A stretch of DNA of 64,000 bases from [Empedobacter] haloabium (GTDB lineage: Bacteria > Pseudomonadota > Gammaproteobacteria > Burkholderiales > Burkholderiaceae_D): assembly GCA_008011715.2 (NCBI GenBank), contig CP136508.1, positions 744,001 through 808,000 on the forward strand. The letters run 5' to 3'. The position numbers were made by a program, and so were the translations under genes. How positions within the stretch are numbered: the stretch's first letter is position 1; the number at the start of each line of letters is the position of its first letter. This document shows, in pieces, positions 11,794 through 61,328 of the stretch. The notes beneath the pieces are model-generated. The model was given only the letters and a program-made list of their open reading frames with translations. It had not been told where the DNA came from and made no database searches.

Positions 11794-11850
11794 ATGGTGT
11801 CAGGCACCTATCTGCGGGTCGAAGACCCGCAGATAGGTGCCTGACACCAT
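11794..11850. repeat. Long perfect palindrome at a convergent gene end
   Basis: The arms 11794-11820 and 11824-11850 are perfect complements (27 bp) around GAA. The outer arm reads ATGGTGTCAGGCACC and the inner arm ATCTGCGGGTC. It lies between the convergent chemoreceptor and DUF3597 genes, so it could act as a two-way terminator, although it lacks a T-run. It closely matches the elements at 34306-34354 and at the IS insertion point near 58968. Confidence 0.85.
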
Positions 11851-55747: not shown

Positions 55748-57760
55748 ATGACGAACCTGTTCGATACCCTGATACCCGCGATCGGCTGGTCGCTGCTGCA
55801 TTTCGTCTGGCAAGGCCTGCTGGTGGGCTGGGCCGCGACACTGGCGCTGCATGCGCTGCGCAACCGTTCGGCGCAGGCCCGCTATGCCGTCGCCTGCGGG
55901 GCGCTGCTGCTGTGCGCCGCCGTGCCGCTGGCCAGCATCGCATGGCGGGTGCTGGAGGCGCAGGCGGCCGGCTACTCGGTGCCGGCCACAGCCGATCCGC
56001 TGCTGCTGGCGGTCGGCGGCGCGGCGGCGCCGCTGCCGGTGCTGCTGGACGGCGACGGCATGACGTCGCTGGAATACCTGCTGCGACGCCAGTTGCCGTC
56101 GCTGGTGCTGCTGTGGGCGGCGGGCGCGGCGCTGATGACGCTGCGCCTGTCGCTGGGGCTGCAGTGGGTGCGGCAGCGCACGCTGGCGGGACGCTTCACG
56201 CCGCACCCGGCCTGGCAGCGCCGCCTGGACGCGCTGGCGGAGCGCATGGGCCTGCGCCGTCCGGTGCTGCTGGGCGTATCGGGCGCCGACCTGGAAGGAC
56301 CGATGACGGCGGGCTGCTGGCGTCCCATCGTGCTGGTGCCGGCGGCGCTGGTGACGGGCATGTCGCCGCACCTGCTGGAGGCGCTGCTGGCGCACGAGCT
56401 GGCGCACATTCGCCGCCACGACTACCTGGTCAACCTGGTGCAAAGCGCCATCGAGATCCTGTTGTTCTATCACCCCAGCGTCTGGCGGCTGTCGCAGCGC
56501 ATCCGCGCCGAGCGCGAACAGATCGCCGACGACCTGGCGGCCGCGGCGCTGGGCGAGCCCCGGCGCCTGGCCCGGGCCTTGTCCGAACTGGACAAGTTCC
56601 AGTTCTCGACCAATCATTTCGCCCCCGCGGCGCAAGGAGGAGACCTCATGTCCCGAATCAAACGTCTGGTCCGGCCGGACACCCAACCCCTCAGCTGGAA
56701 AATGGCCGCGCCGCTGCTGGGCCTGTGCGCGGCCTGCATGATGCTGTATGCCCATGCGCGGCCGGTCAACGAGCCGGCGCTTGCGACGCCGGCGCACCGC
56801 CCCGCCACGGTCAAGCAAGCCGTCGCGGTGCCGGCGTTGCCCGCGCCCGATGCACCCGATGCACCCGATGCACCAGATGCGCCGGCAGCCCCCGCAGTAC
56901 CGGCGGCACCGGGAGCAGCAGACGCGATCCCGGCACCGCCAGCTCCACCGGCCCCGCCAGCACCACCGGCGCCGCCAGCACCGCCAGCACCACCGGCGCG
57001 GATCGATACGGGCATGCGCTTTCACATCGGCGAGCGCGGGGATGGCTATGCGGTCGTGACACGCGGTGCCGGCCAGATTGTCTCGCTGCGCAATTTTGAC
57101 GAGCGCCAGCTGGAGCGCATCAAGGCCACGCAGAAGGGGGATTTTGTCTGGTTCACGAAAGACGGCAAGGGCTATGTCGTCACCGACCCCGCCGTGGTGG
57201 ACAAGGCGCGTGCGGCCTGGACGCCAGTGGAGCAGCTCGGCAAGAAAATCGAACGTCACGGTCAGGAAATGGAAGCGCTGGGGGCAAAGCTGGGCGCCGT
57301 CGGCGCGCAACTGGGCGAGCAGCATGCCGCGGCAGGGCGCGATTCGGTCGTGCGTGCGCTCGAGCGCAAGCTGCGCGAAAAGGAGCGCCGGATGGAACCG
57401 CTGGCCGCGCAGATGGAAAAGCTGGGCCGTGACATCGGGCGGGCGGAGGACGCGAAGGAACGCGACGCGATCGTCGCGCGCAGCATGGCGCTGCAGCGCC
57501 AGATGGTGCCGCTGCAAGCGGAAATGGACGGCATCGCCGCCAGCATCGCCGCGCAGCAGGGCATGATGCAGCCGGACGATGCCCGCATCAAGGCCCTGCG
57601 CGCGCAGATGCAGGCAATCCAGCGGCCGATGGGCGAGCTGGGCCGCAAGATGGGTGAACTGGGGCGCGACCAGGACATGGCCGGCCAGGCAGCGGAGCGC
57701 ACGATGCGCAAGCTGCTGGACGAGGCGTTGCGGCGGGGGACGGCGGTGCCGGCAGGGTAG
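55748..57760 (+). CDS. M56-family membrane metallopeptidase (BlaR1-like) with proline-rich linker
   Basis: A 670-residue inner-membrane zinc protease resembling the BlaR1/MecR1 sensor-protease. Hydrophobic segments occur in the first 150 residues. The HEXXH motif is HELAH at 216-220 (LLAHELAHIRRHDYLVNLV), followed by the third ligand region in RAEREQIADDLA. A last membrane segment (about 318-336) leads to a linker of DAP and PAPP repeats (about 365-418). The C-terminal domain (about 420-670) is charged and mostly coiled-coil, not a beta-lactam sensor. No BlaI-type regulator is adjacent. Confidence 0.88.
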   Translation: MTNLFDTLIPAIGWSLLHFVWQGLLVGWAATLALHALRNRSAQARYAVACGALLLCAAVPLASIAWRVLEAQAAGYSVPATADPLLLAVGGAAAPLPVLLDGDGMTSLEYLLRRQLPSLVLLWAAGAALMTLRLSLGLQWVRQRTLAGRFTPHPAWQRRLDALAERMGLRRPVLLGVSGADLEGPMTAGCWRPIVLVPAALVTGMSPHLLEALLAHELAHIRRHDYLVNLVQSAIEILLFYHPSVWRLSQRIRAEREQIADDLAAAALGEPRRLARALSELDKFQFSTNHFAPAAQGGDLMSRIKRLVRPDTQPLSWKMAAPLLGLCAACMMLYAHARPVNEPALATPAHRPATVKQAVAVPALPAPDAPDAPDAPDAPAAPAVPAAPGAADAIPAPPAPPAPPAPPAPPAPPAPPARIDTGMRFHIGERGDGYAVVTRGAGQIVSLRNFDERQLERIKATQKGDFVWFTKDGKGYVVTDPAVVDKARAAWTPVEQLGKKIERHGQEMEALGAKLGAVGAQLGEQHAAAGRDSVVRALERKLREKERRMEPLAAQMEKLGRDIGRAEDAKERDAIVARSMALQRQMVPLQAEMDGIAASIAAQQGMMQPDDARIKALRAQMQAIQRPMGELGRKMGELGRDQDMAGQAAERTMRKLLDEALRRGTAVPAG

Positions 57761-57766
57761 ACCCAT

Positions 57767-57774
57767 GGTGACAG
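57767..57774. repeat. Left arm fragment of the palindrome split by the IS110 element
   Basis: GGTGAC plus the AG core (57773-57774) remain of the left arm of a palindrome. The rest (from 58968) is on the other side of the insertion. The fragment is 6 bases after the M56 stop codon. Joined to 58968-58984 it rebuilds a 25-base arm complementary, with one mismatch, to 58988-59012. Confidence 0.85.
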
Positions 57775-57782
57775 ATACCGTC

Positions 57783-58784
57783 TTAGCTCGCAAGCGGTTT
57801 CTGTAGATAGTTGGAGTCAAACGGCTGGCCCGAGCGGATGACACCATATATTTGGTGCACGAGCTTGCGCATGGCAGCGACGACGACTGCCATCTTGGCC
57901 ATGCCATTTGCGCTAAGACGCTGCGCGAAGGCGGCGATCAGCGGGTTGTGTTTGATGGCCGTGATAGCAGGCATGTACATAGCGGTTCGCACTTCACCGC
58001 TACCCATGCGGCTTATCGTCGAGCGGCCCCTTACAGAGCTACCGGACTGACGCTGCTTCGGTGTCACCCCCAGATACGCTGCGAGCTTCTTCGCATCGGT
58101 AAAGCGCCGTATGTCGCCCACGCGACTGATCACCTTGGCCGCGGTAACGCGGCCAAGGCCTGGGATGGAAGTCATGAGGTCCACGTCTCGCTTGAGGCCA
58201 GGATGGCCGTCGATATGGTCATCAATCTCCTTTGCTAGCCGTTTGATCTCCTCGTCGAGGTAGGCGATAAGGTTTTTCGCGTTTGCCTGCATCGCCGTAT
58301 CGCTCGCAAACGTATAGGCTTCGAGCCTGTTCTCCTCCTGCTGCCGCATATCCTTCATGGCCGCGACGCGGTCAGTCAACGATCGCAGATGCCGAAGCTC
58401 CGGCGATGGCGCCTCCCAGAGCGGAGGATGCATCGCTGCGCAGTAGCGTGCAATCACGCCAGCGTCGGCTCGGTCATTCTTGTTGCGCATGTTCTCGCAC
58501 TGCCCGAATCCCTTCACGAGCGTCGGGTTGACCATACTTACCTTCAGTCCTAAGTCCGACAACCCCAGTGCGACGGGCTCGCTGTAGACCCCGGTGGACT
58601 CCATACAGGCATGAACGTCTTCGATGACGACACCCTGCTTACCTAGCCACGTCGCCAGTTCCGCGTAGCCCTTGCGCGAATTCTCTACAACTTTGTACTT
58701 CAACTTTCCGCCTGCCAGCAACGCTGCATCGAGCTTCTTTTTGCTGACATCAATCCCTACAACTGGCGAACCTACCACAATCAT
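57783..58784 (-). CDS. IS110-family transposase (DEDD/serine recombinase)
   Basis: A 333-residue bridge-RNA-guided recombinase. The N-terminal RuvC-like DEDD domain has Asp12 (GIDVSK), Glu62 (CMESTG), Asp104 and Asp107 (NDRADA). A coiled-coil region (about 145-195) is followed by the Transposase_20 domain, IPGLGRVTAAKVISRVG to GVTPKQ. The serine cluster QSGSSVRG (246-253) holds the likely catalytic serine. All catalytic residues are present. GGGAGG lies 9 bases before the start and overlaps the end of the bridge RNA's donor guide region. It ends 10 bases inside the right IS boundary. Confidence 0.95.
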   Translation of the reverse strand: MIVVGSPVVGIDVSKKKLDAALLAGGKLKYKVVENSRKGYAELATWLGKQGVVIEDVHACMESTGVYSEPVALGLSDLGLKVSMVNPTLVKGFGQCENMRNKNDRADAGVIARYCAAMHPPLWEAPSPELRHLRSLTDRVAAMKDMRQQEENRLEAYTFASDTAMQANAKNLIAYLDEEIKRLAKEIDDHIDGHPGLKRDVDLMTSIPGLGRVTAAKVISRVGDIRRFTDAKKLAAYLGVTPKQRQSGSSVRGRSTISRMGSGEVRTAMYMPAITAIKHNPLIAAFAQRLSANGMAKMAVVVAAMRKLVHQIYGVIRSGQPFDSNYLQKPLAS

Positions 58785-58794
58785 TTAACCGACC

Positions 58795-58951
58795 TCCCTC
58801 GTATGCAGGCTTGAAGCCTAAGATACCGTCCGGACTCTGAAATGATAAACAGGCAGAGGCACCACTCTGTCACACAGGCTTATGCGCCTCAGGCACCACC
58901 GATGTCTCTCTGCCTGGCCGTACACTCAGCTATATTCTGCCAAAGTTCGAC
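58795..58951 (-). ncRNA. Predicted IS110 bridge RNA
   Basis: The non-coding end upstream of the transposase. Read on minus, the target loop is closed by CAGGCAGAG/CTCTGCCTG (58908-58916 with 58850-58858). It contains GGTGCCT (58891-58897) and GTGACAG (58867-58873), matching GGTGC-CT-GTCAC at the insertion site. The donor loop has GACGGTATCT (58821-58830) and CATACGAG (58798-58805), matching the joined IS ends ...GACGGTAT-CT-CGTATG. AGGC/GCCT hairpins split each pair of guides. The 5' end is inferred from the junction promoter; exact ends are uncertain. Confidence 0.85.
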
Positions 58952-58957
58952 GTGATC

Positions 58958-58963
58958 ATCATA
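58958..58963 (-). promoter_or_regulatory. -10 half of the IS circle-junction promoter
   Basis: On minus this is TATGAT just inside the left IS end. The matching -35, TTGCGA, is at 57788-57793 just inside the other end, overlapping the transposase's last codons. When the ends join through the CT core the spacing is exactly 17 bases. In the integrated form the two halves are over 1 kb apart and the promoter is disrupted. Confidence 0.7.
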
Positions 58964-58967
58964 CGAG

Positions 58968-59012
58968 GCACCGATTTACGGGTCTGCGACCCGCAAATCG
59001 GTGCCTGTCACC
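58968..59012. repeat. Remainder of the palindrome split by the IS110 element
   Basis: The inner part of the left arm (58968-58984), loop TGC and the complete right arm (58988-59012). It resembles the elements at 11794 and 34306 (GCACCGAT-TT-CGGGTC arms) but has GGTGACAGGCACC in place of GGTGTCAGGCACC. It lies 10 bases from the uvrD stop codon, so before the insertion it was a palindrome between two convergent genes. Confidence 0.85.
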
Positions 59013-59021
59013 TCCGGGTTT

Positions 59022-61328
59022 CTAGCGTCCCAGCCGCTCCAGCTTCGCCACCGACAGATCCAGCACCTTCATTCCGGCGCTGCCGAAATTGATCTGCGCC
59101 CGGCAATTGCTGCCGCTGCCCTCGATATTGACGATGACGCCCTCGCCGAACTTGGCATGGGCCACCGACTCGCCGATGCGCCAGCCCGAGCCGCCTGCCT
59201 TGTTCTGCGCGATGCGCTGGGCGATGGCGTTGTCCGAGCCGCCGGACAATTGCGCATCCTCCCAGGTCGGCTTCTTGTTGGCGAACCAGTGGCTCTGCAC
59301 CTTCGGCGACAGCCACTTCAAGGACTTCTCCGGCAGCTCGTCGAAGAAGCGCGACTTCATGTTGTAGCGGGTCTGGCCGTGCAGCATGCGCGTCTGCGAG
59401 AAGCACATGTACAGGCGCTTGCGCGCGCGCGTGATCGCCACGTACATCAGCCGGCGCTCTTCCTCCACGCCGCCTTCCTCCTTCGAACTGCTCTCGTGGG
59501 GGAACAGGCCTTCCTCCAGGCCCGTGATGAACACGTTGTCGAACTCCAACCCCTTGGCCGAGTGCACCGTCATCAGCTGCAGCGCTTCCTGGCCGGCCTG
59601 GGCCTGGTTGTCGCCCGCTTCCAGCGAGGCGTGCGCCAGGAACGCCGACAGCGGTGACATCACGGTCGCCAGCGGCGCGTCCGCATCGAGAATCTCGACG
59701 CCATCGGCGTTGACGATCGCGGCACCAGCCTGCGCCTCGGCCTGCGGGCCCATGTGCGCCGGCGCGCCCTGGCCGTAGCCTTCCTCGGACACGAACTGCG
59801 TGGCCGCGCTGACCATCTGTTCCAGGTTCTCGATGCGGTCGGCGCCTTCCTTCTCGGTGGCGTAATGCGCCAGCAGGCCCGAAGCTTCCAGCGTCACGCG
59901 CACTAGCTCGGGCAGCGCCATATGCTGCGTCTCGAAGCGCACGCCCTCGACCAGCTTGACGAAGCCGCCCAGCGCCGTGCCGGCCTTGCCGACCATGTAG
60001 GGCACTGCCGCGTACAGCGAGATGCCATACGTCTCGGCCGCGTTCTGCAACTGCTCCAGCGTGCGCGCACCGATACCGCGCGCCGGGAAGTTCACGACAC
60101 GCAGGAACGCCGAGTCGTTGTGCGGGTTGTCCATCAGCTGCAGGTAGGCGATCGCGTGCTTGATCTCGGCGCGCTGGAAGTAGCGCAGGCCGCCATATAC
60201 GTGATACGGGATGCCGGCCGAGAACAGCGCGTGCTCGATCACGCGCGACTGCGCGTTGGAGCGGTACAGCACGGCGATCTCGCTGCGCGACGCACCCTCG
60301 GCGATGAGGTTCTTCGCCTCCTCGATGATCCACTGCGCTTCCTGCAGGTCGGAACTGGCCTCGTAGACGCGCACCTGCTCGCCGTGGCCCGCGTCCGTGC
60401 GCAGGTTCTTGCCCAGGCGCCGGCTGTTGTTGGCGATCAGCATATTGGCCGCATCGAGGATGTGGCCGTGCGAGCGGTAGTTCTGTTCCAGCTTGATCAG
60501 GTTACGCACCTGGAATTCGGCCTCGAACGCCGCCATATTGCCCACGTTGGCGCCGCGGAAGGCGTAGATGCTCTGGTCGTCGTCGCCCACCGCGAACAGG
60601 GCGCCGCCCTGCTGCGCGCCGTGGCCGGCCATCAGCTTCAGCCAGTTGTATTGCAGGTTGTTGGTGTCCTGGAACTCGTCGACGAGGATGTGGCGGAAGC
60701 GCTGCTGGTAGTGCTCGCGCAGCGGCTGGTTGCGTGACAACAGCTCGTAGGTGCGCAGCAGCAGCTCGGCGAAATCGACCACGCCTTCGCGCTGGCACTG
60801 CTGGTCGTACAGGTCGTACAGCTCGACCAGCTTGCGCTCGATCGCGTCGTATGGCTCGATCTGCGTGGCGCGCAGGCCTTGCTCCTTGTGGTTGTTGATG
60901 AAGTACATCACCGTCTTGGGCGGGTACTTTTCGTCGTCCACGTTGTTTGCCTTGAGCAGGCGCTTGATCATCGACAGCTGGTCCTGCGAGTCGAGGATCT
61001 GGAACGACTGCGGCAGCGCCGCGTCGCGGTAGTGGGTGCGCAGCAGGCGATTGCACAGGCCGTGGAAAGTGCCGATCCACATGCCGCGTGTATTAATCGG
61101 CAACATTGCCGACAGGCGTGTCAGCATCTCCTTGGCTGCTTTGTTCGTGAACGTGACGGCCAGGATGCCGGCCGGCGATACCTGGCCGGTCTGGATCAGC
61201 CACGCGATGCGCGTGGTCAGCACGCGCGTCTTTCCCGAGCCGGCGCCCGCCAGGATCAGGGCGTTCTGCGGCGGCAGGGTGACGGCGGCAAGTTGTTCGG
61301 GATTGAGATTCAGGAGGAGATTTTGCAT
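59022..61328 (-). CDS. uvrD: ATP-dependent DNA helicase UvrD/PcrA
   Basis: A 3'-5' helicase of nucleotide-excision and mismatch repair, 768 residues. It opens MQNLLLNLNPEQLAAV and has Walker A AGAGSGKTRVL (about 27-37), the LAVTFTNKAAKEML motif Ia, the DEFQDTNNLQ motif II, GDDDQSIYAFRGA motif III, and the C-terminal LMTVHSAKGLEFDNVF and VAITRARKRLYMCF motifs. The start at 61328 matches the family; the ATG at 61370 would add 14 unlikely residues. A TATAAT lies only 7 bases before the ATG. Confidence 0.96.
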   Translation of the reverse strand: MQNLLLNLNPEQLAAVTLPPQNALILAGAGSGKTRVLTTRIAWLIQTGQVSPAGILAVTFTNKAAKEMLTRLSAMLPINTRGMWIGTFHGLCNRLLRTHYRDAALPQSFQILDSQDQLSMIKRLLKANNVDDEKYPPKTVMYFINNHKEQGLRATQIEPYDAIERKLVELYDLYDQQCQREGVVDFAELLLRTYELLSRNQPLREHYQQRFRHILVDEFQDTNNLQYNWLKLMAGHGAQQGGALFAVGDDDQSIYAFRGANVGNMAAFEAEFQVRNLIKLEQNYRSHGHILDAANMLIANNSRRLGKNLRTDAGHGEQVRVYEASSDLQEAQWIIEEAKNLIAEGASRSEIAVLYRSNAQSRVIEHALFSAGIPYHVYGGLRYFQRAEIKHAIAYLQLMDNPHNDSAFLRVVNFPARGIGARTLEQLQNAAETYGISLYAAVPYMVGKAGTALGGFVKLVEGVRFETQHMALPELVRVTLEASGLLAHYATEKEGADRIENLEQMVSAATQFVSEEGYGQGAPAHMGPQAEAQAGAAIVNADGVEILDADAPLATVMSPLSAFLAHASLEAGDNQAQAGQEALQLMTVHSAKGLEFDNVFITGLEEGLFPHESSSKEEGGVEEERRLMYVAITRARKRLYMCFSQTRMLHGQTRYNMKSRFFDELPEKSLKWLSPKVQSHWFANKKPTWEDAQLSGGSDNAIAQRIAQNKAGGSGWRIGESVAHAKFGEGVIVNIEGSGSNCRAQINFGSAGMKVLDLSVAKLERLGR

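Follow-up and report, generated by a model that had tools for sequence, protein, structure and literature searches.

Is one genomic copy of an IS110 element enough to read off its target, core, donor and boundaries? The question was raised by an insertion in the window, i.e., the 64,000-nucleotide stretch of [Empedobacter] haloabium DNA analysed here, for which an earlier note, made from the letters alone, had proposed a complete bridge RNA. Our results indicate that all four can be read in this way and confirmed by comparison. We estimate a probability of roughly 93% that the insertion is an intact-looking mobile element of the IS110 group (IS621-like) encoding its own bridge RNA. This reading draws on the guides, ends, core and target copies, on the covariation of the structure, on the co-change of guides and targets and on a related uninterrupted site, all seen in the DNA itself. 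The features are collected in Table 1, for which guides, stem and flanks were counted by eye.

Table 1. Features of the element, its predicted RNA and its target
Feature	Position	Strand	Basis
IS110-group element, 1,193 bp with one CT core counted	57775..58967	-	guides, flanks, relatives
Recombinase gene, 333 aa, DEDD (RuvC-like) and Transposase_20 domains	57783..58784	-	
CT core (AG on plus), right-end junction	57773..57774	.	flank reading
CT core (AG on plus), left-end junction	58966..58967	.	flank reading
Predicted bridge RNA, putative extent (5' end estimated from junction -10 box)	58785..58951	-	covariation, junction promoter
Target-binding loop and closing stem	58850..58916	-	consensus fold, covariation
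Left target guide GGTGCCT	58891..58897	-	matches rejoined site
Right target guide GTGACAG (reads CTGTCAC)	58867..58873	-	matches rejoined site
Left donor guide GACGGTATCT	58821..58830	-	matches right end over 10 bases
Right donor guide CATACGAG, contiguous	58798..58805	-	matches left end over 8 bases
-35-like TTGCGA, inside recombinase gene 3' end	57788..57793	-	joined-end comparison
-10-like TATGAT, 17 bases from -35 only in joined circle	58958..58963	-	joined-end comparison
Outer part of interrupted hairpin arm, GGTGACAG	57767..57774	.	
Rest of target hairpin	58968..59012	.	
Second, unused exact target GGTGCCTGTCAC in other hairpin arm	59000..59011	+	

All the strings claimed by the earlier note were present on the minus strand where it had placed them. 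The flanks sharing the CT core, GGTGACAG (57767-57774) and AGGCACC (58966-58972), rejoin on the minus strand to GGTGC-CT-GTCAC, and the ends of the element, once joined, read GACGGTAT-CT-CGTATG. The target loop is closed by the stem CAGGCAGAG/CTCTGCCTG (58850-58858 pairing with 58908-58916) and its guides, said to specify the insertion site, match the rejoined sequence at 12 of 12 positions. The guides of the second loop, which had been read as specifying the joined ends through the CT core, indeed do so over 10 and 8 bases, and the AGGC/GCCT hairpin described between the guides of each pair is there as well.

Counting both strands, the window has 6,315 sites with a CT core, and only one of these showed the intact 12/12 target match, namely 59000-59011; at one mismatch or fewer there were four matches, where shuffling gave 0.44 on average. 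Genome-wide (6.48 Mb) the exact 12-mer was found 74 times, versus once for the reversed pattern, while a looser pattern, GGTGNCTGNCACC, gave 206 versus 1. A one-base variant of GGTGCCTGTCAC, namely GGTGCCTGACAC, is also common in the genome. Given the 12/12 reading and the excess of matches in both window and genome, a chance match of guides to site was rejected. The earlier note had given the target sequence correctly but overlooked the hairpin arm; because the target is an arm of a high-copy hairpin, the guide specifies 74 exact places instead of one.

The recombinase scored above cut-off for PF01548 (DEDD, 77.2 bits), PF02371 (91.9 bits) and the NCBIfam model NF033542 (IS110 family RNA-guided transposase). 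Its best relative of solved structure was IS621 (8wt6, E 1.2e-71), with ISCro4 next. Residues D12, E62, D104, D107 and S247 align with D11, E60, D102, D105 and S241 of IS621, in an alignment read by eye, with the crystal chain taken to be offset by two residues; the IS621 active-site residues are those named in the available text of PMC11208158. The long non-coding region of the element (58785-58967, minus strand) lies upstream of the recombinase gene, between it and the left end. At the other end, the last recombinase codons and the bases just past them hold the -35-like box and the donor half-site, which leaves the right end only about 8 non-coding bases ahead of the core. The flanking genes are labelled uvrD and M56 peptidase, which we take to be their identities.

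A search of 198 genomes at E<=1e-60, the window's own (G000) included, returned 26 matches spread over 13 genomes, and two more loci from other records brought the copies to 28. Of these, we analysed the 24 with a readable left end (three others were cut by contig ends and L058 was left out); 21 of the 24 also had a right end. Guides correspond to flanks in the 24 readable copies, with the following mismatches. Among the 15 genus copies with a right end, 14 match the right guide over 7 bases including the core, L055 having one mismatch; six distant copies (L040, L041, L042, L047, L048, L051) match it over 4 to 6 bases. Beyond wobble, the left guide has a single mismatch in L033 and another in L047, and it is also imperfect in L034, L050 and L057. 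The left target guides of L034, L035, L050 and L057 carry TG or TT instead of CT at the core; in L035 both the guide and the left junction are TT at the core and the right junction is CT.

In a swap test where wobble pairs were scored as matches, the left guides of 15 element types matched their own sites at 5.64 of 6 positions versus 3.06 for the sites of others (0 of 20,000 shuffles as good), a score favoured by the framing of seven of the 15 guides with the site in view. For the right guides of 10 types the values were 4.42 of 5 versus 2.96 (1 of 20,000 shuffles as good), and 1 of 20,000 shuffles equalled both tests combined; these figures are not strict probabilities, because the element types are related. 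Guides and sites change together even at single bases, reading GTCAC in G000, GACAC in G032 and GACCC in G045.

For the RNA structure, we aligned nine left ends of the genus clade and scored 29 pairs, leaving out seven guide-to-end pairs. The consensus fold comprises a 5' stem-loop and a target loop that has a long closing stem and a hairpin inside it; the donor region contains an inner hairpin of its own. Compensatory changes, with both sides changed, occur in 15 of the 29 pairs, and 93.9% of the cells pair; neither value was reached in 500 shuffles, and sliding the partners by 1 to 3 columns lowered pairing to 31.8-46.4%. Further pair types over the same 29 pairs and nine left ends did not exceed shuffles (27 versus a mean of 28.2; 398 of 500). 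Folded singly, the sequence had an ordinary energy (z -0.63, equalled by 48 of 200 shuffles), and its minimum-energy fold was not the two-loop form alone. The predicted two-loop structure thus rests on comparison among homologues. Rfam returned nothing at gathering score for window positions 56500-60500 or for L074, L090 and L105.

The earlier note had assigned the RNA to the IS110/IS621 type, and the co-change of guides and sites and the covarying structure in relatives support that assignment. It had also named two observations that would speak against a bridge RNA, i.e., copies of the same element at non-matching sites and the lack of a conserved two-loop structure. Neither was made: G000 gave a single match at E<=1e-60 and hence no second copy, the sites of relatives change with their guides, and the structure is kept, with compensatory changes, in nine homologues.

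With RNA model R1, 18 of 74 genomes gave matches. At the 30 loci kept, tblastn detected recombinase sequence at 16 and none at 14. Five of the latter were read as candidate stand-alone bridge RNAs, and no sound one was seen: L129, L138 and L143 stop at a contig end beside the start of the recombinase gene, while L135 and L136, both within contigs, look decayed. The other nine, outside the five read, are short and at contig ends. At L128, L135, L136 and L139, a bridge RNA or left end accompanies a shortened, split or missing recombinase gene, i.e., these are decayed elements.

Joining the ends yields TTGnnn-17-TATnnT in 21 of 21 joinable copies. The promoter scores are individually weak, being equalled by 58 of 500 shuffles for this copy and by 252-270 of 500 for the G045 copies; compared with the joined form, the integrated form scored lower in 17 of the 21 copies, the same in 3 and higher in one. 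The evidence for a putative promoter is therefore the constant spacing, not the single scores. The IS621 RNA is reported, in the available text of PMC11208160, as transcribed from such a junction promoter.

From these data we infer transcription, a circular form, binding and recombination along the following lines. The recombinase would excise the element as a circle, whose joined ends would form the promoter TTGCGA-17-TATGAT and drive transcription of the left end over about 165 nt. The first loop of this RNA would pair with both strands of the target GGTGC-CT-GTCAC and the second with GACGGTAT-CT-CGTATG at the circle junction, after which the recombinase would swap strands at the CT core. 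Because exchange would take place at that core, insertion would repeat only its 2 bp.

Other explanations must be weighed against this scheme. The rejoined site is a near-perfect palindrome, and several relatives also lie in palindromes (read by eye), as might be found if the recombinase recognised the hairpin by its shape or through protein contacts, the RNA matches being by-products of an RNA with another role. However, recognition by shape is hard to reconcile with guides and sites that co-change at single bases (GTCAC, GACAC and GACCC in G000, G032 and G045), and with two loops that match two separate sequence pairs; we regard it as very improbable. The position of the region, directly upstream of the recombinase gene, would also suit a role mainly as a 5' untranslated regulator of that gene, as reported for ISPpu9 in the portion of that work available. 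As the main function this would not lead one to expect that target and ends are matched, or that they co-change, and it too appears barely credible, though some regulatory role may exist.

That the element is a genuine bridge-RNA carrier which has lost its activity is a minor but real prospect, unlikely in our judgment. It would fit with the single copy found in the genome and with the existence of decayed relatives (L128, L135, L136); against it, the recombinase has a full open frame with the five active-site positions conserved, and the element keeps both ends and all four guides.

Taken as the carrier of its own bridge RNA, the element is a fresh example of the published IS621-type/IS110 design. 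The likeness to IS621, as described in the accessible parts of PMC11208160 and PMC11208158, covers the recombinase domains and active site, the location of the RNA in the left end, its order of 5' stem-loop, target loop and donor loop, the CT core, the sense left guide and antisense right guide, and a putative junction promoter. According to the same sources IS621 also targets palindromic repeats, but the hairpin here is a different one. Protein identity is in the class of about 36-40%, as judged from the alignment and not separately computed. The right target guide is 7 bases long here, like the extended form noted in the available text of the IS621 paper; that of IS621 is short, and the 4-6-base matches of the distant copies resemble it. 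The right donor guide is contiguous, whereas in IS621 nine RNA bases are described, in the accessible text, as pairing discontiguously with seven donor bases. This departure is a small one: 8 of 9 genus-clade RNAs have an unbroken guide, and 3 of 3 distant ones a split, IS621-like guide. To our knowledge the split right donor guide is a described detail of IS621 and is not known to define the IS110 family.

The seekRNA systems (IS110 and IS1111 types), as far as the available text of PMC11187229 describes them, share with our element the upstream non-coding region (IS110 type), two strand-specific guides and natural reprogramming between relatives, but their targets differ from the hairpin targeted here. 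Unlike IS1111, the element showed no subterminal inverted repeat linking one end to the other; on this ground, and since the non-coding region is upstream of the gene and not downstream, the element does not fit the IS1111 group.

It is a tentative proposal, to which we give somewhat less than even odds, that the clade represents a structural variant with two features combined: a right donor guide two bases shorter, pairing without a bulge with 7-8 donor bases, and target guides re-set by single bases between related elements to different subfamilies of a gene-trailing hairpin with complementary, variable stems. The element and its relatives (GTCAC, GACAC, GACCC) offer a natural series of recombinases with single-base guide differences, useful to probe specificity, wobble tolerance and contiguous versus split donor pairing.

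The target itself forms the outer arm of a hairpin that measures 53-54 bases and is found behind genes, and the rejoined site is such a hairpin. Many of the 12-mers occur in opposite pairs about 40 bases apart. We read 45 distinct hairpins, from T-type and part of the A-type places, chosen for having both outer arms intact, and scored 44, leaving out the window's own. The outer arms are fixed, GGTG[A/T]CAGGCACC, and the interiors vary between copies yet stay complementary (e.g., at window 11796-11848 and at loci L001-L030 and L064-L103). Within a copy the 12-base interiors are complementary at 11.8 of 12 positions versus 7.7 crosswise, and perfectly so in 37 of 44. Two subfamilies account for 28 and 16 of the 44, both outer arms of one copy being of the same type. 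A simple reading-frame score placed 27 of the 44 between convergent genes, 16 behind a single gene and 1 between divergent genes, so that 43 of 44 are behind at least one gene; they are possibly transcript ends, and in the loci searched they gave no Rfam match at gathering score. Because the target arms lie behind genes, insertion would spare coding sequence, and the high-copy hairpin looks like a safe landing place.

The hairpin family is worth study in its own right; no published description of it was found, as judged by title or abstract. ISPpu9, ISPpu10 and ISPa11, in the available text of PMC1525189, likewise insert specifically into repeated extragenic palindromes (REP). Unlike those REP sequences, the hairpin here has 53-54 bases, conserved outer arms and variable complementary interiors.

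Among 19 relatives' loci at the insertion place, that of G071 (L105) carries an uninterrupted hairpin of the same kind with the corresponding arm degenerate, and that of G020 (L116) another palindrome. At least 10 copies of the 12-mer were present in seven of 74 genus genomes (G000, G003, G028, G032, G045, G061 and G071), which include the three genomes with the closest elements; G071, with 168 copies, is without such an element at E<=1e-60. A rule by which the guide follows the commonest hairpin subfamily of the host was unsupported, as it fits only one of the three: the 12-mer subfamily counts are 74, 0 and 27 in G000, where the rule holds; 32, 16 and 15 in G032, whose element is programmed for the second; and 150, 51 and 8 in G045, whose element is programmed for the third.

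A REP/RAYT source of the hairpin was also unsupported: of five Y1 genes in the genome, none has the hairpin within about 1.5 kb. Other palindromes, e.g., GGGGTCAGACCC and GGTGACTGACACC, lie near four of these five Y1-type transposase genes (L059, L060, L062, L063), and they resemble the targets of related IS110 elements.
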